A DNA stretch of 64,000 nt. Origin: Rhodoferax sp. GTDB lineage: Bacteria > Pseudomonadota > Gammaproteobacteria > Burkholderiales > Burkholderiaceae_C. Under the pieces are notes generated by a model. The model was not told the origin of the DNA. It did no database searches and was given only the letters and a program-made list of their open reading frames with translations. The stretch lies in contig NZ_JAQTMS010000025.1 of NCBI RefSeq assembly GCF_028714215.1, positions 1-64,000 on the forward strand, given 5' to 3'. The position numbers and the translations under genes were made by a program. Numbering within the stretch: position 1 is the first letter of the stretch; every line of letters starts with the position of its first letter. Shown here piece by piece: positions 4,881 to 18,235 of this stretch.

Positions 4881-5642
4881 CTACTTGAGCGCCGACAGAA
4901 ACTGTTGCAGCTCGGGCGTGCGGGGCTGCGTGAACAAGGTCTCGGGCGCGCCCATTTCATGCACCTTGCCCTGGTGCATGAAGACCACGCGGTCGCTGAC
5001 CTTGCGCGCAAAACTCATCTCGTGGGTCACGATGATCAGGGTCATGCCCTCCAGCGCCAGCCGCTCCACCACCTGCAGCACCTCGCCCACCAGCTCGGGG
5101 TCCAGCGCCGAGGTGATTTCGTCGCACAGCAAGACTTCCGGGTTCATCGCCAGCGCACGCGCAATCGCCACCCGCTGCTGCTGCCCGCCCGACAGGCGAT
5201 CCGGCAGGCTGTCGAACTTGTCGGCCAGCCCGACGCGCTCCAGCAACTGCTCGGCGCGCTGGCGGGCCTCCATCTTGGGCAGAGCTTTGACCAGGGTCGG
5301 CGCCAGCATCACGTTGCGTCCGGCGCTCAAGTGCGGGAACAGGTTGAAGCTCTGAAAAATCATGCCCACGTTCTGGCGCAGTTCGCGCATGGCCCGCGGG
5401 TTGCCGGGCTGCAAGGCCTGGCCGTCGACCCGCAGCTCGCCCTGCTGAAAGTCTTCCAGTCCGTTGATGCAGCGCAGCAGTGTACTTTTGCCGGAGCCGC
5501 TCTTGCCGATGACGCACACCACCTCGCGCCGCCCGACCTGCAGATCGATGCCCTTGAGCACTTCGTGGGTGCCATAGCGCTTGCGCAGGCCGCGGATATC
5601 GACCAGCGGAAAAGACGGTGCGGATTCGGAAGTTGAGGTCAT
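4881..5642 (-). CDS. Polar amino acid ABC transporter, ATPase
   Basis: 253 residues from an ATG that overlaps the stop of the upstream permease gene by four bases. All ABC motifs are present: Walker A GKSGSGKST, Q-loop MIFQSFNLFPH, signature LSGGQQQR, Walker B VLLCDEITSALDPE and H-loop VTHEMSF. The subgroup resembles GlnQ/HisP/GltL-type ATPases that energise uptake of polar amino acids. It is the last gene of the binding protein - permease - permease - ATPase operon. The substrate is probably an amino acid or ureido amino acid, judging from the divergent catabolic genes. Confidence 0.93.
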   Translation of the reverse strand: MTSTSESAPSFPLVDIRGLRKRYGTHEVLKGIDLQVGRREVVCVIGKSGSGKSTLLRCINGLEDFQQGELRVDGQALQPGNPRAMRELRQNVGMIFQSFNLFPHLSAGRNVMLAPTLVKALPKMEARQRAEQLLERVGLADKFDSLPDRLSGGQQQRVAIARALAMNPEVLLCDEITSALDPELVGEVLQVVERLALEGMTLIIVTHEMSFARKVSDRVVFMHQGKVHEMGAPETLFTQPRTPELQQFLSALK

Positions 5643-6289
5643 GGTTGGGGTCGGAGTTTTTGCTCGATGCGCCGGCTCCACATCGACAGCGGCAGGCACA
5701 GCGCGAAATACATCAAGCCGACGCAGCCGTACACCAGAAACGGCTTGTAGGTGGCGTTGGCAATCAACTGGCCGGCCTTGGTGATCTCGACGAAGCCGAT
5801 CACGGAAGTCAGCGCCGTGCCCTTGATGACCTGCACCAGGAAACCCACCGTGGGTGCCACGGCGAGGCGGCTGGCCTGCGGAAAAATCACGTGGCGCAAC
5901 TGCTCGCGCAGATTCAGCGCCAGGCTGCTGCTGGCCTCCCACTGGCCGCGCGGCACGGCGTCGACGCAGCCGCGCCAGATCTCGGTCAGGTAGGCACTGG
6001 TGTAGAGCGTCAGGCAGACCGCGGCGGCCAGCAGCGGCGAGGTGTCGACACCCAGCAGGGCCAGGCCGAAGTAGGTCAGAAAGATCTGCATCAGCAGCGG
6101 CGTGCCCTGAAACAGTTGCACGTACAGCGCGACGCCGCGCCGGGCCCCGGGCCAGCCGGCCAGCCGGGCCAGCAGCAACGCCAGGCCGACCAGGCCGCCG
6201 CCGACAAAGGCGATCATGGACAGGCCCACGGTCCAGCGCAGAGCCAGCAGCAGCTGGTGCACGATGTCCCAAAGTGTGAATTCGACCAT
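5639..6289 (-). CDS. Polar amino acid ABC transporter permease (HisM type)
   Basis: 216 residues with about five membrane spans. It carries the family signature QLFQGTPLLMQIF at about 58-70 and the cytoplasmic coupling (EAA) loop, REQLRHVIFPQASRLAVAP. The arginine-rich C-terminus follows the last span. It pairs with the next permease upstream to form the channel of a three-component importer. The gene starts 18 bases after the first permease and overlaps the ATPase start by four bases, so translation is coupled. Confidence 0.92.
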   Translation of the reverse strand: MVEFTLWDIVHQLLLALRWTVGLSMIAFVGGGLVGLALLLARLAGWPGARRGVALYVQLFQGTPLLMQIFLTYFGLALLGVDTSPLLAAAVCLTLYTSAYLTEIWRGCVDAVPRGQWEASSSLALNLREQLRHVIFPQASRLAVAPTVGFLVQVIKGTALTSVIGFVEITKAGQLIANATYKPFLVYGCVGLMYFALCLPLSMWSRRIEQKLRPQP

Positions 6290-6307
6290 CTTGCTATTAC
6301 CGTGCCC

Positions 6308-6964
6308 TCAGCGGCCGAAGATGAAGCGCGGCCCCAGCCAGTTCAGCGCCTGGCGCAGCAGCACGGCCAGCAGCAGGTACTCGGCGGTGACGATGATGTA
6401 GGCCTCGAAGCTGCGGAAGGTGCGGCTGGAGATCAGGTTCGCGGCGTAAGAGGCTTCCTCGGTCGAGATCTGGCTGCACACCGCCGAGCCCAGCATCACG
6501 ATGATGATCTGGCTGACCAGCGCCGGCCAGACGCGCGCGAGTGCCGGCGGCAGCACCACGCGGCTGAATGTCTGCCAGCCGTTGAGCGCCAGGCTTTGCG
6601 CCGCCTCCAGCTGGCCGCGCGACGTCGCCTCGATGCCGGCGCGGATGATTTCACTGGCGTAGGCGCCCAGATTGAGCACCATGGCCAAAATACTGGCGAC
6701 CTCGGGCGAGAGCCGCACGCCGGCCGCCGGCAGGCCAAAGAAGACAAAGAACAGCTGGATGATGAAGGGCGTGTTGCGGATCAGCTCCACATAGCCGCCC
6801 ACCAGCGCCCGCAAGCCGGCCCCGCCGTGCCCGCGTGACCAGGCGCAGGCAATGCCCAGCAGCGTGCCCAGCAGCGCTGCCGCCAGGCTCAGCAGGCTGG
6901 TCAGCGTCAGCCCCTTGAGCAGCATGGGCCACTGCGCCAGCACCACCAGGAAATCAAACGTCAT
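6308..6964 (-). CDS. Polar amino acid ABC transporter permease (HisQ/M type)
   Basis: 218 residues and several hydrophobic spans. ELIRNTPFIIQLFFVFFGLP is the typical motif of the second permease in these importers, and the EAA loop reads EAAQSLALNGWQTFSRVVLP. It begins 44 bases after the substrate-binding protein stop and forms a heterodimer with the following permease. No frameshift or missing segment is seen. Confidence 0.92.
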   Translation of the reverse strand: MTFDFLVVLAQWPMLLKGLTLTSLLSLAAALLGTLLGIACAWSRGHGGAGLRALVGGYVELIRNTPFIIQLFFVFFGLPAAGVRLSPEVASILAMVLNLGAYASEIIRAGIEATSRGQLEAAQSLALNGWQTFSRVVLPPALARVWPALVSQIIIVMLGSAVCSQISTEEASYAANLISSRTFRSFEAYIIVTAEYLLLAVLLRQALNWLGPRFIFGR

Positions 6965-7008
6965 GCGACCTGCGCTCTAAGGAATTGCAGTCAACGCGCC
7001 ATTGCGCC

Positions 7009-7800
7009 CTATTCCGGCAGGTTGCCGGTGCCGCGGCCCAGCCAGCGCTGCGCATAGGCTTCCAGCGTGCCGTCGGTCTTGGCCTGCTTGATGATGGCGT
7101 TGACCTTGTCCAGCAAGGCCTGCTCGCCCTTGCGCACACCGATGAAGTTGGGCGAATCCTTCAGCAGCAGCTTGTACTCGGCCTCGATCTGCGGATTTTT
7201 TTGCACCGCCAGCGCGGCCACGGCGGCGCCGGTGGCGATCAACTGAGTCTGCTGCGAGACGAAGGCGGCGACGGTCGAGTTGTCGTCTTCAAAGCGCTGG
7301 ATCTTCAAGGTGGGCGGCGCCACTTGCTGCAGCACGTCGTCCTGGATCGTGCCGCGCGTCACGGCAATGGTCTTGCCGCCCAGATCGGCAAAGTTCTTGA
7401 TGGTCAGCGCTTTCGGCCCGAACACCGCCTGGTAGAACGGCGCGTAGGCGATCGTGAAGTCGATCACCTTCTGGCGCTCGGCGTTCTTGCCCAGGGCCGA
7501 GACGATCAGGTCGATCTTTTTGGTTTGCAGATAGGGAATGCGGTTGGGCGTGCTGACCGGCACCAGTTCCGCCTTGACGCCCAGCTTGTCGGCAATCAGC
7601 TGCGCCACGGCGACATCGAGCCCCTGCGGCTTGAAGTCCGGACCCATGAAACCGTAAGGCGGAAAGTCGGTCGGAATGCCCAGGGCAATCGACTTCTTCG
7701 CCAGCACCTTGCTGAGCGAATCATCGGCATGGGCCGGAGCCGACAGCAGCACAAGACCGGCCAGCAGGCCGGTGACGCAGGAGAGGAATCTGGATTTCAT
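7009..7800 (-). CDS. Periplasmic amino acid-binding protein of the ABC importer
   Basis: 263 residues from the ATG at 7800, which starts a classical Sec signal peptide (MKSRFLSCVTGLLAGLVLLS, cleavage after AHA). An upstream extension to 7923 is unlikely because it would bury the signal. The mature part begins SLSKVLAKKSIALGIPTDFP and contains the SBP family 3 pattern PPYGFMGPDFKPQGLDVAVA, a ligand-binding aromatic/acid region. The gene leads the importer operon and is transcribed away from the RpiR regulator. Its upstream region carries two identical palindromes that are likely operators. Confidence 0.92.
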   Translation of the reverse strand: MKSRFLSCVTGLLAGLVLLSAPAHADDSLSKVLAKKSIALGIPTDFPPYGFMGPDFKPQGLDVAVAQLIADKLGVKAELVPVSTPNRIPYLQTKKIDLIVSALGKNAERQKVIDFTIAYAPFYQAVFGPKALTIKNFADLGGKTIAVTRGTIQDDVLQQVAPPTLKIQRFEDDNSTVAAFVSQQTQLIATGAAVAALAVQKNPQIEAEYKLLLKDSPNFIGVRKGEQALLDKVNAIIKQAKTDGTLEAYAQRWLGRGTGNLPE

Positions 7801-7949
7801 GGCGTAGCGATGGCAAAAGTTGAACATGCGCTGGCTAGGCAAGTTGCGTGCCACGCGCCTGCCGCGGGGTGCCGTCAACGCCGATGCGCCCTCTGCCGCA
7901 AAACGACGGACGCTGGCGGGCATCGAATTTGCATGATGGGCTGCGAGCC

Positions 7950-7996
7950 ATGAAATTGAGGTTTCATAGAATATTGATATGAAACAGAAGTTTCAT
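7950..7996. promoter_or_regulatory. Two ATGAAA-N6-TTTCAT palindromes (candidate RpiR operators)
   Basis: Two copies of the same 18-bp palindrome occur in the divergent intergenic region: ATGAAA (7950-7955) with TTTCAT (7962-7967), and ATGAAA (7979-7984) with TTTCAT (7991-7996). Both have a six-base spacer of unrelated sequence, and the centres are 29 bp apart. The arrangement is what a dimeric repressor bound at two sites would use. The divergent RpiR regulator is the obvious candidate. The sites sit between the importer operon and the catabolic operon and could control both. Confidence 0.65.
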
Positions 7997-8072
7997 GCTG
8001 GTGCGGGCCATGCCTCAAATTGGTGAGGTCCGCACCGAAGTTGAATACCCGTCCCTCCGCGATAGCCCAAAA

Positions 8073-8948
8073 ATGACCCAACCCTGCGAATCCCTGGCCG
8101 CCAAAATCCGCCAGGCCTACGACGCACTGTCCGTCACCGAGCGCAAGCTGGCCGACGTGGTGCTGACCCGGCAAAAGGATTTGCTGAGCTACTCGGCGAC
8201 CGAACTGGCGAAGCTGGCCGGCGTCTCCAAGGCCAGCGCCGCGCGCTTTTTCAGGCGCCTGGGTTTCGCCGATTTCCATGCCTTCCGGCAGCATGTGCGC
8301 AGCCAGGTGTCGCAGCAATCGCCGCTGTTTCGCATGGACCTCAGCCGGACCCGGCAAAGCGCCCTCAGCCGGCTGGAGCAGCACGTGCAGCAGGATGCGC
8401 TGCGCCTGCGCGCCCTGCTCGACGGCGCCAGTGACGACACGCTGGAGCGTGCCCTGGCGCTGTTGACGCAGGCCCGCCGCATCCTGGTGGTGGGCTACCG
8501 CAACAGCGCGATGACGGCCTTCCATGCGCATGCCCTGCTGTCGCAAGTGCGGCCCGGTGTGCAGTTGCTCAACGACATGGCCGGCCAGGCCGCCGAAATG
8601 CTGGCCGACCTGGACGCCACCGACGTCCTGCTGGTGCTGGACTTCAGACGCCGCACGCGCCGCCTGGCACCCCTGGTGGCGGCGGCGCGCAGCGCCAAGG
8701 TCCGCCTGCTGCTGCTGACCGATGCCCAGTTGTCGGCGCTGACCTCGCAAGCCGCGGTGGTCCTGCATTGCCCCAGCCCCGGTGCAACGCCAATGCAGCA
8801 GATCTTCGACTCCTATGTGGCGGCGGTCAGTCTGGTGAACTACCTGGCCGGCGCCGTCGCCGCCCGGACGCGCAAACAGGCGCGCAGCCGCATGGCCCGC
8901 ATCGAGGACTTGCATACGCTGCTGCACGATCTTGAAACCGATTCTTAA
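8073..8948 (+). CDS. RpiR-family transcriptional regulator (HTH-SIS)
   Basis: About 291 residues from MTQPCESLA. A start at 7995 is possible but falls inside the second palindrome, so I prefer 8073; neither start has a strong ribosome site. The N-terminal HTH reads LSVTERKLADVVLTRQKDLL then ATELAKLAGVSKASAARFFR, the RpiR pattern. The SIS domain follows: RRILVVGYRNSAMTAFHAHA, DVLLVLDFRRRTRRL and AAVVLHCPSP. SIS domains bind phosphosugars or other small ligands. It starts 122 bases from the first palindrome and is followed after 18 bases by the ammonia-lyase gene, so it likely regulates the flanking importer and catabolic genes in response to their substrate. Confidence 0.88.
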   Translation: MTQPCESLAAKIRQAYDALSVTERKLADVVLTRQKDLLSYSATELAKLAGVSKASAARFFRRLGFADFHAFRQHVRSQVSQQSPLFRMDLSRTRQSALSRLEQHVQQDALRLRALLDGASDDTLERALALLTQARRILVVGYRNSAMTAFHAHALLSQVRPGVQLLNDMAGQAAEMLADLDATDVLLVLDFRRRTRRLAPLVAAARSAKVRLLLLTDAQLSALTSQAAVVLHCPSPGATPMQQIFDSYVAAVSLVNYLAGAVAARTRKQARSRMARIEDLHTLLHDLETDS

Positions 8949-8966
8949 CCCTTGGGTCTTTTCCTC

Positions 8967-10193
8967 ATGTCCGAACTTCCCAGCATCGCCAGCACGGTTT
9001 TCCTGAATCCGGCGCGCCAGCGCAGCCAGCCCTATGGCGCGCAGCGCGCTCAAATCCTCCGGGCCGCGGCGCTGGCGCAAGCAGAACAGGCGATCACGGC
9101 CTGGCCCGGCTACCGAGTCACGCCTTTGCACGCCCTGCCACAGCTGGCCGGCGCGCTGGGCGTGGCCGCCATCCATTACAAGGACGAAGGCTCGCGCTTC
9201 GGTCTGGGCAGCTTCAAGGCACTGGGCGGCGCCTATGCCGTGGCCCGCTTGCTGTGCCGCGAGCTGGGGCCACGCCTGGGCCGCAGCCTGGGCAGCGCCG
9301 ACCTGTTGCTGCCGCAAGTGCGCCAGGCCTGCGCCGGCATCACCGTCAGCTGCGCCACCGACGGCAACCACGGCCGCTCGGTGGCCTGGGGCGCGCAGTT
9401 GTTCGGCTGCCGCTGTGTCATCTACATCCACGCCACGGTGAGCGAGGGGCGCAAGCAAGCCATAGCGCGTTACGGCGCGCAAGTGGTTCGCACCGCCGGC
9501 AACTACGACGAGGCGGTGCGCCAGGCCGACCGCGACGCTCGCGCCAACGGCTGGTTCGTGATTTCCGACACCTCCTACCCCGGCTATATGGACGTGCCGC
9601 GCGATGTCATGCAAGGCTATCAGCTGATGGTGGCCGAGGCGGTCCGGCAGTTGGACCAGTGGCCCACCCACGTTTTTGTGCAGGCCGGCGTGGGCGGTTT
9701 TGCCGCCGCCGTTTGCGCCTATTTCTGGGAGCGCGATGCCGCCCGGCGCCCCTTCTTCGGGGTGGTGGAGCCGAGCGCGGCCGACTGCCTGATGCAAAGT
9801 GCGCGCAACGGCCGGGTTACCGCCGTGACGGGTGAGCTGGACACCTTGATGGCGGGGCTGGCTTGCGGCGAGGTGTCCCTGCTGGCCTGGGACATCCTGG
9901 CGCAGGGCGCCGATGCGTTTTGCAGCGTTGATGACCAGGCGGCGGTGGCCACCATGCGCCTGCTGGCGCACCCGCTGGGGGCGGACCCCGCGATCGTGGC
10001 CGGCGAGTCGGCTGTGGCGGGTTTGGCAGCAGCCATCGGCGTGCTGCGCGACCCGGCGGCCCGCGCCGCACTGGCGCTGGACGCCAGCAGCCGCCTCCTG
10101 TTCTTCGGCAGCGAAGCCGACACCGACCCGGCGCTGTACCAGCAACTGGTGGGCGCCAGTGCGGACGATATCCGGCAAGGCGCAGCGGCATGA
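8967..10193 (+). CDS. dpaL: 2,3-diaminopropionate ammonia-lyase
   Basis: 408 residues, a PLP fold type II enzyme. The PLP lysine is Lys84 in GLGSFKALGG, preceded by YKDEGSRF. Asp132 in ATDGNHGRSVA and Asp201 in DTSYPGY match the catalytic aspartates known in E. coli YgeX, and QAGVGGFAAA binds the cofactor phosphate. The enzyme converts 2,3-diaminopropionate to pyruvate and two ammonia, and the E. coli enzyme accepts both enantiomers. It overlaps the following M20 hydrolase gene by four bases, the same pairing as E. coli ygeX-ygeY. Threonine dehydratase is a less likely alternative. Confidence 0.9.
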   Translation: MSELPSIASTVFLNPARQRSQPYGAQRAQILRAAALAQAEQAITAWPGYRVTPLHALPQLAGALGVAAIHYKDEGSRFGLGSFKALGGAYAVARLLCRELGPRLGRSLGSADLLLPQVRQACAGITVSCATDGNHGRSVAWGAQLFGCRCVIYIHATVSEGRKQAIARYGAQVVRTAGNYDEAVRQADRDARANGWFVISDTSYPGYMDVPRDVMQGYQLMVAEAVRQLDQWPTHVFVQAGVGGFAAAVCAYFWERDAARRPFFGVVEPSAADCLMQSARNGRVTAVTGELDTLMAGLACGEVSLLAWDILAQGADAFCSVDDQAAVATMRLLAHPLGADPAIVAGESAVAGLAAAIGVLRDPAARAALALDASSRLLFFGSEADTDPALYQQLVGASADDIRQGAAA

Positions 10194-11440
10194 GCGCTCC
10201 GGCAATCAACGCACAGCGACTGTTGGACAGCCTGCAAGAGTTAGGTGCGTGCGGCGCCTTGCCGGGCGGCGGCGTCAATCGGCTGGCTTTCAGCGACGCC
10301 GACAGATTGGGCCGCGACTGGACCGTGGCGCGCATGCGGGCGCTGGGCATGACGGTCAGCGTGGACGGCATCGGCAATGGCGTGGCCGTTTATCCGGGCA
10401 GCGAGGAACTGCCCCCGGTCATGATGGGATCGCACATCGACACCGTGCGCACGGGTGGCCTGTACGACGGCAACCTGGGTGTGCTGGCCGGCCTGGAAGT
10501 GATTGCCACCCTGCGTGATGCGGGCCTGCGCACCCGGCGCCCGCTGGCCGTGGCCTTTTTCAGCAACGAGGAGGGCGCGCGCTTTCAGCCCGACATGATG
10601 GGCAGCCTGGTCTATGTCGGCGCGCTGCCGCTGGCGCAGGCGCTGGACACGTCGGGCATCGATGGCGCTACCGTCGGCGACGAACTGCAACGCATCGGCT
10701 ACCGGGGCACGGCGCCGGTAGGCCAACCGCAGGTCGACAGTTTTATCGAGCTGCACATCGAGCAGGGCCCGGTGCTGCACCAGCAAGGCTTGCCGATCGG
10801 CGTGGTGGAGGGCGTGCAAGGCATCTCGTGGACCGAGTTCACCCTGGAGGGCAACGCCAACCACGCCGGCACCACGCCCATGGCGCTGCGCCGCGACGCG
10901 GCGTACGCGGCAGCCTGCATCACCACCTTCGTGCATGACCTGGCGCTGCGCTACGGCGGGCGTCAGATCGCCACTGTCGGCTCGATTCAGCTCACGCCCA
11001 ACCTGATCAACGTGATTGCCCAGCGCGCCGTGCTGACGGTGGACTTGCGCAACACCGATGAGGCCATGCTGGCGCGCGCCGAACTGGAGGTGCTGGCCTA
11101 TGCGCAACAGACGGCCGCCGCCCAGGGCGTGACTTGCCGCCAGCGAACACTGGCACGCTTTGAGCCGGTGGCCTTCGACCCGGCGCTGGTGAACCTGGTG
11201 GAGCAGCAAGCCCGTGCCCTGGGCCTGGCCACGCTGCGCCTGCCCAGCGGCGCCGGCCACGACGCGCAGATGCTGTCGCGCGTCTGCCCGACGGCCATGA
11301 TCTTTGTGCCCAGCGTCGACGGCCTGAGCCACAACGTGCGCGAGTTCACCACGCCAGAGCACTTGGCGCAGGGTGCCCAGGTGCTGCTGCAAGTGGTGCT
11401 GAAGCTGGCCAACCGCCCACAGAGTGCTCTTGATTTTTAA
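10190..11440 (+). CDS. M20 family N-carbamoyl-L-amino acid hydrolase / allantoate amidohydrolase-like
   Basis: 416 residues. Metal ligands typical of the AmaB/HyuC/AllC group are visible: His82 in GSHIDTV, Asp93 in LYDGNLGV, the Glu pair 127-128 in FFSNEEGARF, His189 in ELHIEQGPVL and a late His in LSHNVREF. The dimerisation domain includes the family pattern NANHAGTTPMALRRDA. These enzymes remove a carbamoyl or ureido group from the amino group of L-amino acids or related compounds, releasing CO2 and ammonia. Translation is coupled to the diaminopropionate ammonia-lyase by a four-base overlap, so its product may be that enzyme's substrate. Confidence 0.88.
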   Translation: MSAPAINAQRLLDSLQELGACGALPGGGVNRLAFSDADRLGRDWTVARMRALGMTVSVDGIGNGVAVYPGSEELPPVMMGSHIDTVRTGGLYDGNLGVLAGLEVIATLRDAGLRTRRPLAVAFFSNEEGARFQPDMMGSLVYVGALPLAQALDTSGIDGATVGDELQRIGYRGTAPVGQPQVDSFIELHIEQGPVLHQQGLPIGVVEGVQGISWTEFTLEGNANHAGTTPMALRRDAAYAAACITTFVHDLALRYGGRQIATVGSIQLTPNLINVIAQRAVLTVDLRNTDEAMLARAELEVLAYAQQTAAAQGVTCRQRTLARFEPVAFDPALVNLVEQQARALGLATLRLPSGAGHDAQMLSRVCPTAMIFVPSVDGLSHNVREFTTPEHLAQGAQVLLQVVLKLANRPQSALDF

Positions 11441-11458
11441 ACCGGATTGGAATTTGTC

Positions 11459-12418
11459 ATGCCCCGTTATGTGAACGTCGCGCTGGGCCAACTGGGCCCG
11501 ATCCAGCGCCAGCACAGCCGAACCCAGGTGGTGGCCCGGCTGTGCGCCCTGATGCGCGAGGCGCACGCGGTCGGCGCGCAGCTGATCGTCTACCCCGAGC
11601 TGGCGCTGACCACTTTCTTTCCGCGCTGGTACATGCAGGACGAGGACGAGATCGACAGCTTCTTCGAGCGCGAGATGCCCAGCGCCGCCACGCTACCCCT
11701 GTTTGAACTGGCGCACAAGCTGGGCGTGGGCTTTTACCTGGGCTACGCCGAACTGGCGCAGGAACAGGGCAACAAGGTGCGCTACAACTCCTCGATCCTG
11801 GTCGACCGCAGCGGAACCATCATCGCCAAGTACCGCAAGGTCCACCTGCCGGGCCACCGCGAACATGAGCCCTGGCGGCGCTTCCAGCACCTGGAAAAAC
11901 GCTATTTCACACCAGGTCGGCGTTTTGACGTGACGCCGGCCTTTGGCGGCGTGGTCGGCATGGCCTTGTGCAACGACCGGCGCTGGGCCGAGACCTACCG
12001 CGTGATGGGGCTGCAAGGCGTGGAGATGGTGCTGATCGGCTACAACACGCCGGTGCACAACGCGCCGGCGCCGCAGCACGACGACTTGTCGCTGTTTCAC
12101 AACCAGTTGGCGATGCAGGCCGGCGCTTACCAGAACGGCTGCTGGGTGGTGGGCGTGGCCAAGGCCGGGGTGGAGGAAGGGGTCGACAGCATCGGCGGCA
12201 GTTGCATCATCGCGCCCTCCGGCGAGCTGGTGGCGCGTTGCCTGAGCAAAGACGACGAGATGGCGCTGGCGCGTAGCGACCTGGACTTTTGCGCGGTCTA
12301 CCAGAAAACCACTTTCAATTTCGACCTGCACCGCCGCCCCGAGGCCTACGCCATGATCGTCCAACGCAAAGGCCTGACCCTGGCCGCCGATGGCACGCCG
12401 TGGGCAACTGCTGAATAA
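11459..12418 (+). CDS. N-carbamoyl-D-amino acid hydrolase (nitrilase superfamily)
   Basis: 319 residues from MPRYVNVAL; an ATG four codons earlier is also possible. The nitrilase triad sits at the positions known from Agrobacterium D-carbamoylase: Glu47 in YPELALTTFFPRW, Lys127 in KYRKVHLPGHRE and Cys171 in ALCNDRRWAE. Other family stretches such as FQHLEKRYF and MQAGAYQNGCW are kept. The enzyme hydrolyses N-carbamoyl-D-amino acids to D-amino acid, CO2 and ammonia. It follows the M20 hydrolase by 18 bases, so one operon encodes hydrolases for both stereochemical series plus a lyase. Confidence 0.92.
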   Translation: MPRYVNVALGQLGPIQRQHSRTQVVARLCALMREAHAVGAQLIVYPELALTTFFPRWYMQDEDEIDSFFEREMPSAATLPLFELAHKLGVGFYLGYAELAQEQGNKVRYNSSILVDRSGTIIAKYRKVHLPGHREHEPWRRFQHLEKRYFTPGRRFDVTPAFGGVVGMALCNDRRWAETYRVMGLQGVEMVLIGYNTPVHNAPAPQHDDLSLFHNQLAMQAGAYQNGCWVVGVAKAGVEEGVDSIGGSCIIAPSGELVARCLSKDDEMALARSDLDFCAVYQKTTFNFDLHRRPEAYAMIVQRKGLTLAADGTPWATAE

Positions 12419-12455
12419 ATCCCTCTGTGTCCGCTAGCAGACAGACATCACTATA

Positions 12456-12505
12456 AAGATGCATTTATATTGAATCTTTTCAAAGATTCATGTAAGATGC
12501 ATCAT
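12456..12505 (+). promoter_or_regulatory. Two candidate NsrR boxes upstream of the NO reductase
   Basis: Two adjacent 11-1-11 inverted repeats fit the NsrR pattern (AAGATGCATTT and its complement). The first is AAGATGCATTT-A-TATTGAATCTT at 12456-12478. The second is AAGATTCATGT-A-AGATGCATCAT at 12483-12505. Each arm matches its partner at roughly 8 of 11 positions. They end 65 bases before the NO reductase start, suitable for repression lifted by NO. The nsrR-like gene is the next gene downstream. Confidence 0.65.
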
Positions 12506-12570
12506 TAGTAAGCTTCGATTCGAACTTACATCCACGTCTGTTTCAACGCTACCGATAAGGAATCCTCGCC

Positions 12571-14850
12571 ATGCACGCAACGCGCAAACTCTGGACCTGG
12601 CTGGCCGTCATCTGTGTACTGTCTTTTGCCGTTTTAGGCTGGGTCGGGACCGAGATCTACCTGACGGCGCCGCCCATTCCCAAACAAGTCATCAGCAGCA
12701 ACGGAACGGTGCTGTTCTCCGAGGGACAGATCCAGCGCGGGCAGGAAGCCTGGCTGTCGGCCGGCGGCCAGCAACTGGGCACCGTCTGGGGCCACGGCAG
12801 CTATGTCGCGCCGGACTGGTCGGCCGACTGGCTGCACCGTGAAGCGCTGGCCTTGCGCGCGATCTGGTCGCAACGCGATTTCGGCAAATCCTTCGAGCAA
12901 CTGAGCATTGGCCAGCAAGCCGAACTCAATGGCCGGCTGAAGCACGAAATGCGGCGCAACACTTATGACGCCACGACCGACAGCATCGCCGTTTCGGCGG
13001 ACCGTGCCGAAGCGATAGAACAAGTCAGGCAGCATTACACGGGCTTGTTCGGCAACGACCCCTCCCTGGACAAGCTGCGCGAGCAGTACGCCATGAACGC
13101 CGGCTCCCTGCCCGACCCGCTTGACCTGCAGGCGCTGCCGGCCTTCATGTTCTGGGCGGCTTGGTCGGCCGCCACCGACCGACCGGGCCAGACCGACCTG
13201 AGCTACACCAGCAACTGGCCGCACGAAGCGCTGGTCGACAACGTGCCAACGGCCGGTGCCGGCATCTGGTCCATCGCCAGCATCATCTTGATGATCGCCG
13301 CCATCGCCGGCATGATCCTGTACCACTCGACGACCCGGGAGGAGGGCGATCCGACGCCACCCAAGACCGATCCGCTGTTCGACCTGAAACCGACGCCGTC
13401 GATGAAGGCGACGCGCAAATACTTCTACGTCGTGATCGGCCTGATCCTGGCCCAGGTCGCCATGGGCGCCCTCACCGCGCACTACGCGGTGGAGGGGCAC
13501 AGCTTCTTCGGCTTCCCGCTGGCGCAGATCCTGCCCTATACGGTGAGCCGCACCATCCACACCCAGTTCGCCGTGCTGTGGATCGCCACCGCCTGGCTGG
13601 CCACCGGCCTGTACATCGCGCCGGCGATCTCGGGGCACGAGCCCAAATACCAGAAGCTGGGTGTCGACCTGCTGTTCTACGCCCTGCTGTTCATCGTCGT
13701 CGGCTCCACCGCTTTTGGCTGGCTGGGCTCACTGCAGCACCTGGGCAATGGTTTCAGCTTCTGGGTCGGCAACCAAGGCCTGGAATTCACCAGCATGGGA
13801 CGCGTCTGGCAAGTGCTGCTGTTTGTCGGCCTGCTGTTCTGGGTCACCTTGCTGGGGCGTGGCCTGTGGCCGGCCCTGAAGACGCCGTCCGAGAGCCGCG
13901 GCCTGATTGCCATGGTGTTCCTGGCCGCGCTGTGCATCGGCGGCTTCTATGCCACCTCGCTGACCTGGGGGCCGCATACGCATTACTCCATGATCGAATA
14001 CTGGCGCTGGTGGCTGGTCCACCTGTGGGTGGAAGGCTTCTTCGAAGTGTTTGCCACCGCCGTGATCGCCTTGTTGTTCACCCGCCTGGGCCTGATCCGC
14101 GCCAGCACGGCCAACAGCGCGATCGTGCTGGAAACCATCGTCTTCCTGTTCGGCGGCATCCTGGGCACCTTGCATCACCTGTACTTCACCGGCACGCCGA
14201 CCTTTGTGATTGCCATCGGGGCCATGTTCTCGGCGCTGGAGGTAGTGCCGCTGGCGATGATAGGGGTGGAAGCCTATCGCAACTACCAGCGTTCCAAGGC
14301 GGCGCCCTGGGTGCAGACCTATAAATGGTCCATTCTGTGTTTCATCGCCGTCGGCTTCTGGAACGTGGTGGGCGCCGGCCTGCTGGGCTTCTCGATCAAC
14401 ACGCCGATCGCGCTGTACTACATGCAAGGCCTCAACATGACGGCGGCGCACGGCCACGCCGCGCTGTTCGGCGTCTACGGCATGCTGGGCATAGGCTTGC
14501 TGCTGTTCTGTCTGCGCGGCTTGTCGGATCGCGCCGCCTGGTCGGATCGGCTGCTGGCCCCCATGTTCTGGTCGCTCAACATCGGCCTGGCCATGATGGT
14601 GTTCATCTCGCTGGTGCCGGCCGGCATTTACCAGGCCTGGGCCAGCATCACCCAGGGCATGTGGTTTGCGCGCTCACCCGAGGTGGTTCACTCCAAGCTG
14701 ATGGAAACACTGGTCTGGCTGCGCGTGCCGGGCGACCTGGTGTTTGCCCTGGGCACTGTGTTCCTGGCCTGGTTCGCCCTGCGTTTGCTGACCGGCGGCA
14801 AGCGCTCACTCCAGGCGGCGGTGCCGCTGGTGGGAAACAAGAGCGCCTGA
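12571..14850 (+). CDS. norZ: Quinol-dependent nitric oxide reductase (qNOR)
   Basis: 759 residues, the normal length of single-subunit qNOR. The N-terminal extension, with one membrane anchor and a cytochrome-c-like domain lacking a CxxCH haem motif, contains GQIQRGQEAWLSAGGQQLGT. The C-terminal half is the NorB-type haem-copper oxidase core with many spans and the histidine ligand regions TIHTQFAVLWIATAW, HLWVEGFFEVFATA, GTLHHLYFTGTP and NMTAAHGHAALFG. It reduces two NO to N2O at the cytoplasmic membrane using quinol. The start has an AAGGAA site. It stands alone, without norD/norQ, next to nsrR and ytfE, so detoxification rather than full denitrification is likely. Confidence 0.95.
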   Translation: MHATRKLWTWLAVICVLSFAVLGWVGTEIYLTAPPIPKQVISSNGTVLFSEGQIQRGQEAWLSAGGQQLGTVWGHGSYVAPDWSADWLHREALALRAIWSQRDFGKSFEQLSIGQQAELNGRLKHEMRRNTYDATTDSIAVSADRAEAIEQVRQHYTGLFGNDPSLDKLREQYAMNAGSLPDPLDLQALPAFMFWAAWSAATDRPGQTDLSYTSNWPHEALVDNVPTAGAGIWSIASIILMIAAIAGMILYHSTTREEGDPTPPKTDPLFDLKPTPSMKATRKYFYVVIGLILAQVAMGALTAHYAVEGHSFFGFPLAQILPYTVSRTIHTQFAVLWIATAWLATGLYIAPAISGHEPKYQKLGVDLLFYALLFIVVGSTAFGWLGSLQHLGNGFSFWVGNQGLEFTSMGRVWQVLLFVGLLFWVTLLGRGLWPALKTPSESRGLIAMVFLAALCIGGFYATSLTWGPHTHYSMIEYWRWWLVHLWVEGFFEVFATAVIALLFTRLGLIRASTANSAIVLETIVFLFGGILGTLHHLYFTGTPTFVIAIGAMFSALEVVPLAMIGVEAYRNYQRSKAAPWVQTYKWSILCFIAVGFWNVVGAGLLGFSINTPIALYYMQGLNMTAAHGHAALFGVYGMLGIGLLLFCLRGLSDRAAWSDRLLAPMFWSLNIGLAMMVFISLVPAGIYQAWASITQGMWFARSPEVVHSKLMETLVWLRVPGDLVFALGTVFLAWFALRLLTGGKRSLQAAVPLVGNKSA

Positions 14851-14923
14851 TTTCGGGGCCATGCCCCACGGACTTGAACCGACCGGGGGCGCCCGCCGCG
14901 CCACCCGGTTTTGCCGCGCCCGC

Positions 14924-15394
14924 CTACCTGGACGTCGTCAACTTGACCGCCGCGCGGCGTTTCGGCAAATTGGGCAGCCCGGCGCCGGACGAGGGCACCA
15001 GATCGGCCAGCGTGACGCCGTCGAGCACCTGCATATAGCTCTGCAAGGCCTGGTGCAGAACACTCTTCAGGCCGCAATGCCCGGTCAGCCGGCAACTGCC
15101 ACTGGCCGAGTCGAAGCACTCCACCATGGTGAAGTCGGTCTCGGTATGGCGCACCACGGCGCCCAGCGCGATGTCCTTGGCCGATTTCAGCAGGCGCAGG
15201 CCGCCGCCGCGGCCACGCGTCGTTTCCAGCAAACCCTGGTTGGAGAGTTCCACCACGATTTTGGTCAGGTGGCTGCGCGAGATGTCGTGCGCGTCGGCGA
15301 TCTCGGTGATCGTCACCGGCTCGGCGCGCCCCTCGCTGGCGGCGCAATACATCAGCACGCGCAGGCTGTAGTCGGTCCAACTGGTAAGTTTCAT
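14924..15394 (-). CDS. nsrR: NsrR-type Rrf2 nitric oxide sensor repressor
   Basis: 156 residues from the ATG at 15394, preceded by AGAGGA. An Rrf2 winged helix opens the protein (MKLTSWTDYSLRVLMYCA, ITEIADAHDISRSHLTKIV, GGGLRL). Three cysteines, Cys93, Cys101 and Cys107, in the C-terminal part match the Fe-S cluster ligands of NsrR in number and spacing. NO damage to the cluster releases DNA. The gene is convergent with norZ (72 bases between, containing only a 5-bp GGGGC/GCCCC hairpin) and divergent from ytfE, sharing a 135-base intergenic region with candidate boxes, so autoregulation is plausible. Confidence 0.9.
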   Translation of the reverse strand: MKLTSWTDYSLRVLMYCAASEGRAEPVTITEIADAHDISRSHLTKIVVELSNQGLLETTRGRGGGLRLLKSAKDIALGAVVRHTETDFTMVECFDSASGSCRLTGHCGLKSVLHQALQSYMQVLDGVTLADLVPSSGAGLPNLPKRRAAVKLTTSR

Positions 15395-15459
15395 CGCAAG
15401 ATCCTCTGGGTGGCCAATGGCGCCGCTCTGGGAAGTCCGAAAGCCAGGCAGCGTCTTAA

Positions 15460-15514
15460 AAGATGAACAAGTAATGCATTTTATCGGATAAAATATGCAC
15501 ACCGTATGAATCTT
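15460..15514. promoter_or_regulatory. Candidate NsrR boxes between nsrR and ytfE
   Basis: Two imperfect 11-1-11 repeats occur in the divergent promoter region: AAGATGAACAA-G-TAATGCATTTT at 15460-15482 and AATATGCACAC-C-GTATGAATCTT at 15492-15514. Arms match at about 7 and 8 of 11 positions. Both contain the AAGAT-like and TGCA/TTCA elements of the boxes in front of norZ. The second box ends 15 bases before the ytfE start codon, so binding would block ytfE expression. Confidence 0.55.
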
Positions 15515-15529
15515 TGAAAGGAAACCTCA

Positions 15530-16255
15530 ATGAACGCTCGAATCGAATTGCCGGAACCGCAGCTCTTCCTCAACCGCGCCGACCAGGCACTGGGCCAGAT
15601 CGCGGTGCAATTGGCCGGTGCCACCGCCGTCTTTCGGCGCCTCAAGCTCGACTTCTGTTGCGGTGGCCAGATCAGCCTGCGCCAGGCCGCCCAGGACCGC
15701 AAACTGGACCTGGCAGCCGTGCTGGAGGAACTGGCCGGCTTGCAGCGCGGCAGTGACTTGCCCCACAGCACGGCGCCGGCGGCCTTGATCGACCACATTC
15801 TGGAGCGCTACCACGCGCTGCACCGCGTCCAACTGCCCGAGTTGATCCGGATGGCGCGGCGCGTCGAGGCGGTGCACCGTGAGCATCCCGATTTGCCGGC
15901 TGGCCTGGCGCAATTGCTGGAGGCCATGGAACGCGAGTTGTTGAGCCACATGGAAAAAGAGGAAGCCATTCTCTTTCCGATGCTCAAGGCCGGCGGCAAT
16001 CCGTTTGTGGTGCATCCAATTGGCGTGCTGCGCAGCGAACACACCGGTCATGGCGAGCTGCTGGAGCGCCTGGCTGCCATGACCCACGACGCCACGCCGC
16101 CGGCAGACGCCTGCAACACCTGGCAGGCTCTGTACCTGGGGATCAGGCAACTGAACGACGACCTGATCAACCACATTCACCTCGAAAACAATGTGCTTTT
16201 TCCGCAGTTCGAGCCCAGCCAAAGCAGCGGCAATGGCTGTGGCTGCGCGGGCTGA
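15530..16255 (+). CDS. ytfE: Di-iron iron-sulfur cluster repair protein (YtfE/RIC/ScdA/DnrN)
   Basis: 241 residues. The ScdA-type N-terminal domain contains LKLDFCCGGQISL with the conserved Cys pair. The hemerythrin-like domain carries His/Glu ligand motifs: LIDHILERYHALHR, HMEKEEAILFPM, RSEHTGHGEL and NHIHLENNVLFP. A short Cys tail, CGCAG, ends the protein. RIC proteins help rebuild iron-sulfur centres after NO or oxidative damage and may release NO. Placement beside nsrR and norZ with shared candidate operators makes a nitrosative stress role firm. A GAAAGGAAA ribosome site precedes the start. Confidence 0.93.
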   Translation: MNARIELPEPQLFLNRADQALGQIAVQLAGATAVFRRLKLDFCCGGQISLRQAAQDRKLDLAAVLEELAGLQRGSDLPHSTAPAALIDHILERYHALHRVQLPELIRMARRVEAVHREHPDLPAGLAQLLEAMERELLSHMEKEEAILFPMLKAGGNPFVVHPIGVLRSEHTGHGELLERLAAMTHDATPPADACNTWQALYLGIRQLNDDLINHIHLENNVLFPQFEPSQSSGNGCGCAG

Positions 16256-16300
16256 ATAGAATCAGACGGCTGCGTCCGGGAACGGCGCAGCCGCACCGTC

Positions 16301-16504
16301 ATGGCAAAGAAATTTCCGATCCATCCCGAGCACCCCGAGCGACTTTGCTGGGGCTGCGACAAGTACTGCGCGGCCGATGCGCTGTTGTGCGGCAATGGCT
16401 CGGAGCGCACCCAGCACCCGGTTGAACTGTTCGGCGACGACTGGAAGACCTGGGGTCACGACTATGTGGCGGAGCCGGCAAAGACCGCGCCAATGGCTGA
16501 TTGA
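16301..16504 (+). CDS. DUF3079 small cysteine-containing protein
   Basis: 67 residues matching the DUF3079 pattern: MAKKFPIHPEHPERLCWGCD, KYCAADALLCGNGSERTQHP and ELFGDDWKTWG. Four cysteines, at 16, 19, 23 and 30, could bind a metal. The function of the family is unknown. It begins 45 bases after ytfE on the same strand and could be in the same transcript, though the family also occurs elsewhere without ytfE. Confidence 0.82.
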   Translation: MAKKFPIHPEHPERLCWGCDKYCAADALLCGNGSERTQHPVELFGDDWKTWGHDYVAEPAKTAPMAD

Positions 16505-16521
16505 CATAGCGGGGCAGGGCT

Positions 16522-17160
16522 TCAGCGCCAGCCTTGCCAGCCGGTCCAGGCCGCCGCGAATATCAGAAACAAGCCGACGCCGCGCCCGATGGCGATCTGC
16601 TGGCGCGGATTGTTGCGCAGCCACAGGCGCAGGCTTCCGGCGCCCCAGGCCATGGCGCCGTAGACCAGGAACTGGGTCAGCGCGATGATCAAGCTCATGA
16701 CGCTCGCCTGCACGGCCAGCGGTCCGTACTCGGGCCGCACGAATTGCGGAAAGACCGCCACCATGAAGACATAGGCCTTGGGATTCATCAGGCAGGACAG
16801 GGCACCGCGGGAAACAGTCCGCGCCACCGTCAGCCGCGGCACAGCGCCGACCTCGCCCAGCGCCGCGGCACCACGCCACAAGCTCCAGCCGATGTAGGCG
16901 ATGTAGAGGGAGCCGGCCAGCAGCAAGGCGTTGAAGGCCAGCGGGTAAACGCTCAGCAGCAGGCCGACGCCCAGCGTCGCCATTACCACGTGCAGCACGC
17001 CGCCGCCGGCAATGCCGGCCACGGCCGCCAGGCCCAGCTTGCGGCCACCGGCCAGGGAACTGGCCATCACGTAAGCCATGTCCATGCCGGGCAGCGCGAT
17101 GATGCCCAGAACCATCAGGGCAAACAGCCAGAGGTGGCTGGTTTCGGTCAATAAATACAT
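16522..17160 (-). CDS. LysE/RhtB family amino acid exporter
   Basis: 212 residues from the ATG at 17160, with AAGGAAG upstream. Six hydrophobic spans, the opening ALMVLGIIALPGMDMAYVMA and the NPKAYVFMVAVFPQF motif mark the LysE superfamily, which exports amino acids or their derivatives. The substrate is not predictable. It is divergent from a WYL-type regulator 97 bases away, which probably controls it. Convergent with the DUF3079 gene, leaving a 17-base gap. Confidence 0.88.
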   Translation of the reverse strand: MYLLTETSHLWLFALMVLGIIALPGMDMAYVMASSLAGGRKLGLAAVAGIAGGGVLHVVMATLGVGLLLSVYPLAFNALLLAGSLYIAYIGWSLWRGAAALGEVGAVPRLTVARTVSRGALSCLMNPKAYVFMVAVFPQFVRPEYGPLAVQASVMSLIIALTQFLVYGAMAWGAGSLRLWLRNNPRQQIAIGRGVGLFLIFAAAWTGWQGWR

Positions 17161-17257
17161 GGCGTTCACTTCCTTGTTGGGGGGGTGGAGAGGACTGTAG
17201 GGCGCCATCCGGACACTATCTGTCCTGATTCATCGCTGGCCGTCATAAACTCGCGCC

Positions 17258-18235
17258 ATGGCTTCCCCCACCACCCGCGTGCTGGCGCTGCTGGAACTGC
17301 TGCAGAACTTCGATGAGCTCAGCGGCAGCGAGTTGGCGCGCCGGCTCCAGGTCGATGAGCGCACGCTCAGGCGCTATGTCACCAAGTTGCAGGGCCTGGG
17401 CATCCCGGTGCAATCCGACCGCGGACGCTACGGCGCTTACCGCTTGACGCCCGGCTTCAAGCTGCCGCCCCTGATGTTCAGCGACGACGAGGCGCTGGCC
17501 ATGTCTTTGGGGCTGCTGTTTGCCGCCGGCCTCGGGCTGGAGGGCAGCGAGACCGGTGCCCGCAGTGCGCAAAGCAAGCTGGAGCGTGTCATGCCCCAGG
17601 GCTTGCGCGCCAAACTGCGGGCCTTGTCGGCGACCATGCAGCTTGATCTGTCGCAACCGGTGGCTCCGGTGCAGAGCGCCGCGCTGCTGGAACTCAGCGC
17701 CGCCGCGCATGTGCGGCACCGGGTCTGGCTCCAGTACTGCGCTGCCAACGGTGCCGCCAGCGAGCGGGAGTTCGACTGCTACGGCCTGGCCTGGCGCGGT
17801 GGCCGTTGGTACGCCGTCGGCTACTGCCACCTCAGAAATGGTTTGCGCTCGTTCCGGCTGGACCGCATCCAAGCCGTGGCGCCACGCCCGCAATCGTTTG
17901 CGGCGCCCGCCGATTTCGATGCGGTGCGCCATCTGGCGCTGGGCCTGGCCACCTTGCCGCGGGCGCAAGCGGTGCGCGTGCTGCTGAAGACCGACATGGC
18001 GACGGCGCGCGCCGAGCTGTTCGCCGCCATCGGCTTGCTGGTGCCGATGGGCGACGCCGTGCTGCTGCACAGCCAGGTCGATGATCTGGCGTGGTACGCC
18101 CGGCAACTGGCGCGGCTGTCGTTCGATTTCGAAGTGCTGGAGCTGCTGGCCTTGCAGCAGGAGATCCGCAATGTGGCGGTTCGTCTGTTCCGACTGGGCA
18201 GCCGGTATGAGGTGAAGCCGCTGGGGTCGGCCTGA
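17258..18235 (+). CDS. YafY-type HTH and WYL domain transcriptional regulator
   Basis: 325 residues: N-terminal HTH_11 (VLALLELLQNFDELSGSELA, ARRLQVDERTLRRYVTKLQ), a linker, then a WYL domain with RVWLQYCAANGAASEREFDC, WRGGRWYAVGYCHLRNGLRS and FRLDRI, and a C-terminal WCX-like segment. WYL domains sense ligands, often nucleic-acid related or small molecules. Its start lies 97 bases from that of the LysE-family exporter on the opposite strand, so that gene is its likely target. Confidence 0.9.
   Translation: MASPTTRVLALLELLQNFDELSGSELARRLQVDERTLRRYVTKLQGLGIPVQSDRGRYGAYRLTPGFKLPPLMFSDDEALAMSLGLLFAAGLGLEGSETGARSAQSKLERVMPQGLRAKLRALSATMQLDLSQPVAPVQSAALLELSAAAHVRHRVWLQYCAANGAASEREFDCYGLAWRGGRWYAVGYCHLRNGLRSFRLDRIQAVAPRPQSFAAPADFDAVRHLALGLATLPRAQAVRVLLKTDMATARAELFAAIGLLVPMGDAVLLHSQVDDLAWYARQLARLSFDFEVLELLALQQEIRNVAVRLFRLGSRYEVKPLGSA

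Follow-up and report, generated by a model that had tools for sequence, protein, structure and literature searches.

The genes reported here have their closest known counterpart in the lower half of a gut pathway for uric acid that was described recently, the reductive urate pathway. Li et al. 2025 (PMC12507026) report that reduction and ring opening turn urate into ureidomethyl-hydantoin, from which HyuA yields 2,3-diureidopropionate. In their scheme, YgeW or the C. difficile protein UacY takes off the 2-ureido group to give albizziin (also written albizziine), and this pathway intermediate is converted to pyruvate by YgeY, which strips the 3-ureido group, and YgeX, which accepts both enantiomers of diaminopropionate. 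Percudani (PMC12990295) notes a dispute over which of the two ureido groups is cleaved first, and mentions a proposed R configuration. E. coli-type clusters are tabulated in PMC2276186. Here we describe eight genes at positions 4881-12418 of a 64,000-nucleotide stretch of Rhodoferax sp. DNA (the window; contig C25 of a genome of 5.16 Mb), which combine a 2,3-diaminopropionate ammonia-lyase with two predicted carbamoylases, a regulator and an importer, and which may serve the degradation of an imported ureido acid. The author of an earlier note on this DNA was not aware of a description of this gene combination, and in the open-licence literature we likewise found no paper with this gene set.

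Organization of the gene cluster

The eight genes form two divergent operons, with the coordinates and the lyase/M20 overlap claimed in the earlier note; open reading frames (ORFs) and profile scores bear out both. The leftward operon (minus strand) encodes an ATP-binding cassette (ABC) importer of the polar amino acid type in the order periplasmic binding protein (SBP_bac_3 or family-3, 7009..7800; PF00497, 116.6 bits against a Pfam gathering score of 26.4), permease 1 (6308..6964; TIGR01726, 91.1 bits, cut-off 42.2), permease 2 (5639..6289; TIGR01726, 90.1 bits, same cut-off) and ATPase (4881..5642; PF00005, 128 bits; GlnQ-like, scoring under the equivalog cut-offs). The rightward operon (plus strand) opens with an RpiR/MurR-type regulator, in which the domains HTH_6 (PF01418, 53.2 bits) and SIS (PF01380, 54.9 bits) both pass their cut-offs. 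Its ORF extends over 7995-8948, but the likely gene is 8073..8948, since the longer frame opens inside an operator-like palindrome described below. There follow a pyridoxal phosphate (PLP)-dependent 2,3-diaminopropionate ammonia-lyase (8967..10193; NF006058, 536.2 bits, cut-off 276), an amidohydrolase of the M20 hydantoinase/carbamoylase family (10190..11440; TIGR01879, 406.5 bits, cut-off 204), whose start overlaps the lyase end by four bases, and a carbon-nitrogen (CN) hydrolase (11459..12418), whose best solved relative is an N-carbamoyl-D-amino-acid hydrolase (397 bits) and which is called the D-carbamoylase below.

The next downstream gene opens at 12571 and is unmatched in 69 related loci. 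The region 12571-16255 looks like a nitric oxide stress module: a 759-residue protein, which without an NCBIfam match at 1e-20 we take from its sequence to be a quinol-type nitric oxide reductase, is accompanied by an Rrf2-superfamily regulator and a YtfE/RIC iron-sulfur repair protein that scores over its cut-off.

Conservation and distribution

One lyase scan of named genomes returned these 69 loci, and 46 of them encode a lyase at least 60% identical to that of the window. Lyase, M20 enzyme and D-carbamoylase (hereafter the trio) occur together in 34 of the 46 loci and the complete eight-gene set in 26; seven of the 12 loci without the trio are truncated at contig ends. The earlier note had proposed a genome survey of co-occurrence, and in this one the adjacency lies beyond chance. 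At the 23 loci with a lyase of 46-59% identity, neither an M20 gene nor a D-carbamoylase was seen. Rough clustering of 866 ORFs from the flanks of the 69 loci showed that only the cluster's own genes recur in more than eight loci. Thus, the eight genes are one real conserved unit in Burkholderiales.

A search anchored on the D-carbamoylase (E-value 1e-120) matched 9 of 299 genomes of the family and 6 of 141 genera. Besides the window it gave nine places: all seven at 66% identity or more adjoin an M20 gene, five of them also a lyase, with the other two ending at a contig edge, and the two at 59% have neither partner. Some genomes seem to figure in both surveys (G810 and G734 look like the same records as loci L008 and L019), so that the two are not independent. 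In a survey of the order, a D-carbamoylase was found at an E-value of 1e-60 in 20 of 200 genomes, and the trio was present at two of the three places outside the Rhodoferax genome with 61-66% identity and absent from one. The distribution of the cluster is therefore patchy.

The M20 enzyme was used as the anchor in a sample of the phylum, where at most four candidates were scored per genome and the counts are lower bounds. It was detected at an E-value of 1e-110 in at least 17 of 398 genomes. Among the 16 M20 loci outside the Rhodoferax genome, 12 had an adjacent lyase, three a D-carbamoylase (in one case without the lyase), and eight had an M20 aminoacylase and an Lrp regulator instead. Ten of the 12 lyase-adjacent loci were without a D-carbamoylase. 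The M20 enzyme and the lyase are thus the core, to which a variable second hydrolase is added, as expected if two nitrogens are freed one after another.

Two loci deserve separate mention. L246 (G579) has all eight genes, but its lyase match is broken into two overlapping parts, apparently through a frameshift or an error of assembly. L031, from the cochineal-insect symbiont Candidatus Dactylopiibacterium carminicum, carries the trio and the regulator; the recycling of urate has been discussed for this niche.

Catalytic enzymes

The catalytic residues named in the earlier note proved correct. With the starts taken at 8967 and 11459, the lyase residues Lys84, Asp132 and Asp201 align with Lys77, Asp120 and Asp189 of YgeX, which we take to be the PLP lysine and two catalytic aspartates, and are conserved without exception in all 47 lyases compared. 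Likewise, Glu47, Lys127 and Cys171 are invariant in all 39 trio D-carbamoylases. Partial or stop-bearing translations were excluded from these and the other alignments. The lyase shares 39-40% identity with YgeX and scores 356.9 bits with the YgeX equivalog TIGR03528, under its cut-off of 532.25.

The CN hydrolase carries the Glu-Lys-Cys triad and a CNDRR motif, and its closest solved relatives are N-carbamoyl-D-amino-acid hydrolases; it is assigned to this group, with the corresponding predicted activity. Six positions (E137, W139, V199, P203, A204 and G227) typify the trio enzymes, each in at least 38 of 39 members of a sample drawn mostly from close Burkholderiales, and were found in at most two of 27 non-trio D-carbamoylases.

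The likeness to E. coli ygeX-ygeY drawn in the earlier note stands for the lyase and is looser than suggested for the M20 gene. YgeY belongs to another M20 subfamily, with a marginal match of 26% identity over 100 residues (E = 0.027), and its family (NF009555/TIGR03526) is not among the 21 families listed at an E-value of 0.001. The window M20 enzyme is 45% identical to the M20 protein of a dihydropyrimidinase cluster in the same genome and 35% identical to that genome's allantoate-type fusion. In a tree that left out L053 and L201 and was thinned of near-identical rows, the lyase-linked M20 proteins group in a single branch (98/91) that excludes AllC, the fusion and the pyrimidine type, with the caveat that the reference sequences sit on long branches and that similarity to the trio M20 was the basis for collecting the rows. 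This branch also includes four rows without a nearby lyase (L203, L210, L211 and L214). The dihydropyrimidinase cluster itself lies on contig C63 of the Rhodoferax genome (G000), at about 10400-17800, and is a reductive pyrimidine cluster with dihydropyrimidinase, M20 enzyme, transporter and proteins resembling dihydropyrimidine dehydrogenase (DPD).

Operator-like palindromes

A palindrome search with shuffled controls revealed two copies of ATGAAA-N6-TTTCAT between the binding-protein gene and the regulator gene (window 7950-7996): ATGAAATTGAGGTTTCAT at 7950..7967 and, 29 bp beyond it, ATGAAACAGAAGTTTCAT at 7979..7996. At least one palindrome with up to two mismatches is present in 29 of 35 importer-regulator gaps of relatives, as compared to 0.76 expected and a maximum of three in 200 dinucleotide shuffles of these gaps. 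With up to one mismatch it is found in 20 of the 35, and pairs spaced 29 or 30 bp occur in 20 of 35 gaps and in none of the 200 shuffles. Only a single site with up to one mismatch turned up in 489,123 bases of DNA beyond these gaps. Three perfect palindromes exist in the whole genome, two of them in the window cluster; the third, on contig C9, is located in a coding region and was taken as a chance occurrence.

C. necator N-1, G283 and G449 have the same motif close to their regulator genes, with one perfect copy in G449 ahead of both its TRAP transporter genes and the regulator, and palindromes flank the regulator on both sides in two Rhizobium plasmids. It was absent, at up to one mismatch, from the three Lrp-type loci examined. 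Since the paired palindromes recur in the gaps of relatives, a single RpiR regulon probably comprises both the importer and the enzymes, with the RpiR protein probably binding the pair and governing both divergent operons.

Binding protein and importer

In an alignment of 35 complete binding proteins, Arg75 and Thr118 (numbering of the glutamine-binding protein GlnBP) are kept in all 35 sequences, whereas the position of Asp157 is Gly in all 35 and Asp in each of six E. coli homologues. In GlnBP, Arg75 and Thr118 presumably hold the ligand carboxylate and Asp157 the alpha-ammonium group. The replacement of this Asp by Gly favours a 2-ureido acid over albizziine as the ligand, without being proof. 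Albizziine had been suggested as the substrate in the earlier note, and it is indeed a published intermediate of the urate pathway (PMC12507026), but a binding protein without the alpha-ammonium Asp suits it poorly.

Among paralogues of the binding protein in the Rhodoferax genome (9 of 13 PF00497 places were usable), the position is Asp in six of eight, Ser in one and Gly in one. The Gly-bearing paralogue, on contig C71, lies near two amidohydrolases that by sequence reading, without a model search, resemble histidine-degradation enzymes, which makes an amine-free ligand plausible for this paralogue. Of five structure models of the cluster's binding protein, the best had a predicted local distance difference test (pLDDT) score of 84.7 and the others 43-64, so that only this one was confident; a structure search with the model led to binding proteins for amino acids in general and for opines, and pointed to no particular ligand.

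Variant clusters

The trio occurs with five importer types in all. The family-3 ABC importer of the window is shared by the named relatives and Cupriavidus KK10. An oligopeptide-type ABC importer takes its place in G179 and, by reading of ORFs, in G102, an ABC importer of SBP_bac_8 type together with a D-hydantoinase in Rhizobium ACO-34A and R. daejeonense, tripartite ATP-independent periplasmic (TRAP) transporters in G283 and G449, and a major facilitator superfamily (MFS) carrier with a YgeY-family hydrolase in C. necator N-1. The Rhizobium clusters lie on plasmids and contain an RpiR regulator and the trio beside D-hydantoinases of 533 and 529 bits (cut-off 393); the additional hydrolase of C. 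necator N-1 scores 391.6 bits with NF009555 (cut-off 321).

Lrp-regulated clusters of lyase, M20 enzyme and M20 aminoacylase were found at L180, L181, L204-L209, L212 and L215, mostly outside the order of the window. Their substrate may be another N-blocked diaminopropionate. At L201 (8940-9662), a DUF1028 protein (PF06267, 214 bits) follows lyase and M20 gene in the usual place of the D-carbamoylase and is possibly a replacement hydrolase. The lyases of L054 and L055 (53-54% identity) adjoin an M24 peptidase-like protein that, from its sequence, resembles ectoine hydrolase. L147, on plasmid pSR7 of Aminobacter sp. SR38, is without a lyase and has a D-carbamoylase, an M20 enzyme, a dihydropyrimidinase, another amidohydrolase and an ABC importer. 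No NCBIfam model scores over its cut-off with this further amidohydrolase (the best is the chlorohydrolase family, with 8-oxoguanine deaminase and SsnA far below), and the set may represent another ring-opening route.

Proposed pathway and alternatives

Gene content, conservation, operator-like sites, catalytic residues and hydantoinase-bearing relatives are directly observed; the substrates, step order, stereochemistry and regulator-operator binding of the scheme below are what we infer. In that scheme, to which we give about an even chance, the compound taken up by the unit is 2,3-diureidopropionate or a similar 2-ureido acid, and three enzymes degrade it in series. Once imported, it would lose its 2-ureido group to the D-carbamoylase and its 3-ureido group to the M20 enzyme, leaving diaminopropionate for the lyase to cleave into pyruvate and ammonia. 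If this is right, 2,3-diureidopropionate would yield pyruvate along with four ammonia and two CO2, PLP and a metal being the only cofactors, and RpiR would control importer and enzymes jointly via the paired palindromes. The scheme is suggested by the Rhizobium clusters, which match the lower half of the urate pathway, and by the window set, which is the same minus the hydantoinase.

The earlier note had the carbamoylases acting side by side, each on one of the two enantiomers of a mono-carbamoylated diaminopropionate such as albizziine, upstream of a lyase that takes both. D-Carbamoylases work on alpha-ureido groups, whereas albizziine has a beta-ureido group, and the products of D-hydantoinases, including those expected from the enzyme of the Rhizobium clusters, are mostly of the D series. 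With a binding protein that is also poor for albizziine, this division of labour appears unlikely, although each trio has one M20 enzyme and one D-carbamoylase, and the lyase homologue YgeX takes both enantiomers (PMC12507026). A co-regulated route for N-carbamoyl-diaminopropionates is what stands of the proposal, and the assignment of one carbamoylase to each albizziine enantiomer is less supported. Degradation in series fits better, because the M20 enzyme pairs with the lyase in many clusters without a D-carbamoylase and is nearer to the pyrimidine-cluster M20 (45%) than to the allantoate-type fusion (35%), because the binding protein is without the residue that holds a free alpha-amine, and because two Rhizobium clusters include a D-hydantoinase.

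Less probable again is that the cluster salvages D- and L-N-carbamoyl amino acids in general and that the lyase uses one of the several amino acids set free (for example a beta-substituted alanine or a D-serine-like compound). The M20 carbamoylase and D-carbamoylase families are often broad in substrate, and a hydantoinase lies within 5 kb of 10 of 27 non-trio D-carbamoylases; however, the lyase stays beside the hydrolase pair across five importer types, and the trio D-carbamoylases have their own conserved positions. Finally, an intracellular precursor, in which case reductive pyrimidine degradation would supply albizziin or diureidopropionate by way of 5-amino- or 5-ureido-dihydrouracil, is very improbable: the genome does have the dihydropyrimidinase/DPD-like cluster, but on another contig (C63) with its own M20 enzyme and transporter, while the window unit has its own importer and the only perfect non-coding palindromes of the genome.

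Several observations weigh against degradation of diureidopropionate in series by a dedicated unit. Five loci with a close lyase (L022, L034, L044, L045 and L052) have neither partner in the available DNA, and the lyase therefore has other roles. The trio members are not one clade in the D-carbamoylase tree, from which stop-bearing rows (L145 and L200 among them) were left out and near-identical trio rows thinned, which indicates that the link to the lyase was gained or lost at least twice. The use of an aminoacylase in the Lrp-type clusters means that the M20 substrate is perhaps not always an albizziin, and the extra hydrolase of C. necator N-1 fails the cut-off of TIGR03526 (YgeY). Loss of the alpha-ammonium Asp is not unique to the cluster's binding protein, two of eight paralogues being without it, and the five importer types argue against leaning on any single importer. 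At up to one mismatch, no palindrome was seen in L248 or in L155 and L156, two loci with an oligopeptide importer. Hydantoinases were sought by tblastn at 1e-10 in the window, in the 69 named loci and in 13 more loci with complete or partial trios, and none was found. SsnA was over its cut-off in none of 11 genomes or records including the Rhodoferax genome (nine of them with the trio, four of these nine being single plasmids), and the best match to YgfK in the Rhodoferax genome reached 289 bits against a cut-off of 835.3. No natural source of diureidopropionate for such bacteria is documented in the literature found.

Comparison with known systems

YgfK and SsnA being absent over cut-off, the substrate would come from outside the cell. 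D-hydantoinases over cut-off were detected in five of the 11 genomes or records and in four of the nine with the trio; the only one in the Rhodoferax genome is the enzyme of the C63 pyrimidine cluster. A tentative and rather doubtful extension is that the urate pathway is split between organisms, with anaerobes releasing ureidomethyl-hydantoin or D-2,3-diureidopropionate, and Burkholderiales and rhizobia scavenging these with an independently assembled hydrolytic lower half and a dedicated 2-ureido-acid importer. If the proposed pathway is true, bacteria without the first half of the reductive pathway can finish the breakdown of urate carbon and nitrogen, and an alternative set of enzymes exists for removing the two ureido groups, a process for which both the sequence of cleavages and their stereochemistry are listed as open (PMC12990295). 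If a D-specific carbamoylase takes the place of YgeW, this would bear on the proposed R (D) configuration. The cluster also offers candidates for an importer of ureido acids and for the corresponding regulator and operator.

The cluster can be compared with several described or related systems. With D-hydantoinase/N-carbamoyl-D-amino-acid hydrolase pairs it has in common the D-carbamoylase family and its catalytic residues, but it is without a hydantoinase, includes the M20 enzyme and the lyase, and has trio-specific D-carbamoylase positions. The PydC-like M20 protein of the C63 pyrimidine cluster belongs to the same family (45% identity) and to a different tree branch from the lyase-linked M20 proteins. 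In the Lrp-type clusters the lyase adjoins an M20 carbamoylase-family gene as in the window, with the aminoacylase replacing the D-carbamoylase and Lrp replacing RpiR.

The tested marker genes of the reductive urate gene cluster, SsnA and YgfK, are absent over cut-off, and the Rhodoferax cluster is therefore not a member of it. YgeW had no match in the window or the fetched loci, to which that search was confined. The Rhodoferax cluster also differs in its ABC importer, RpiR regulator and purely hydrolytic make-up, in having a CN-hydrolase D-carbamoylase for the carbamoyltransferase YgeW or for UacY, and in another M20 subfamily for YgeY. Nevertheless, the predicted step types are the same as in the lower half of that pathway (E. 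coli hyuA-ygeW-ygeY-ygeX and the C. difficile UacY variant; PMC12990295 and PMC12507026): removal of the 2-ureido group, removal of the 3-ureido group and a diaminopropionate lyase, with hydantoin opening in the Rhizobium version only. D-hydantoinase, D-carbamoylase, M20 enzyme and lyase of the Rhizobium clusters match hyuA, ygeW, ygeY and ygeX function by function, and the window cluster is the Rhizobium set minus the hydantoinase. Its chemistry would thus be that of the urate pathway's lower half, carried out by hydrolases of other families on a scavenged substrate.

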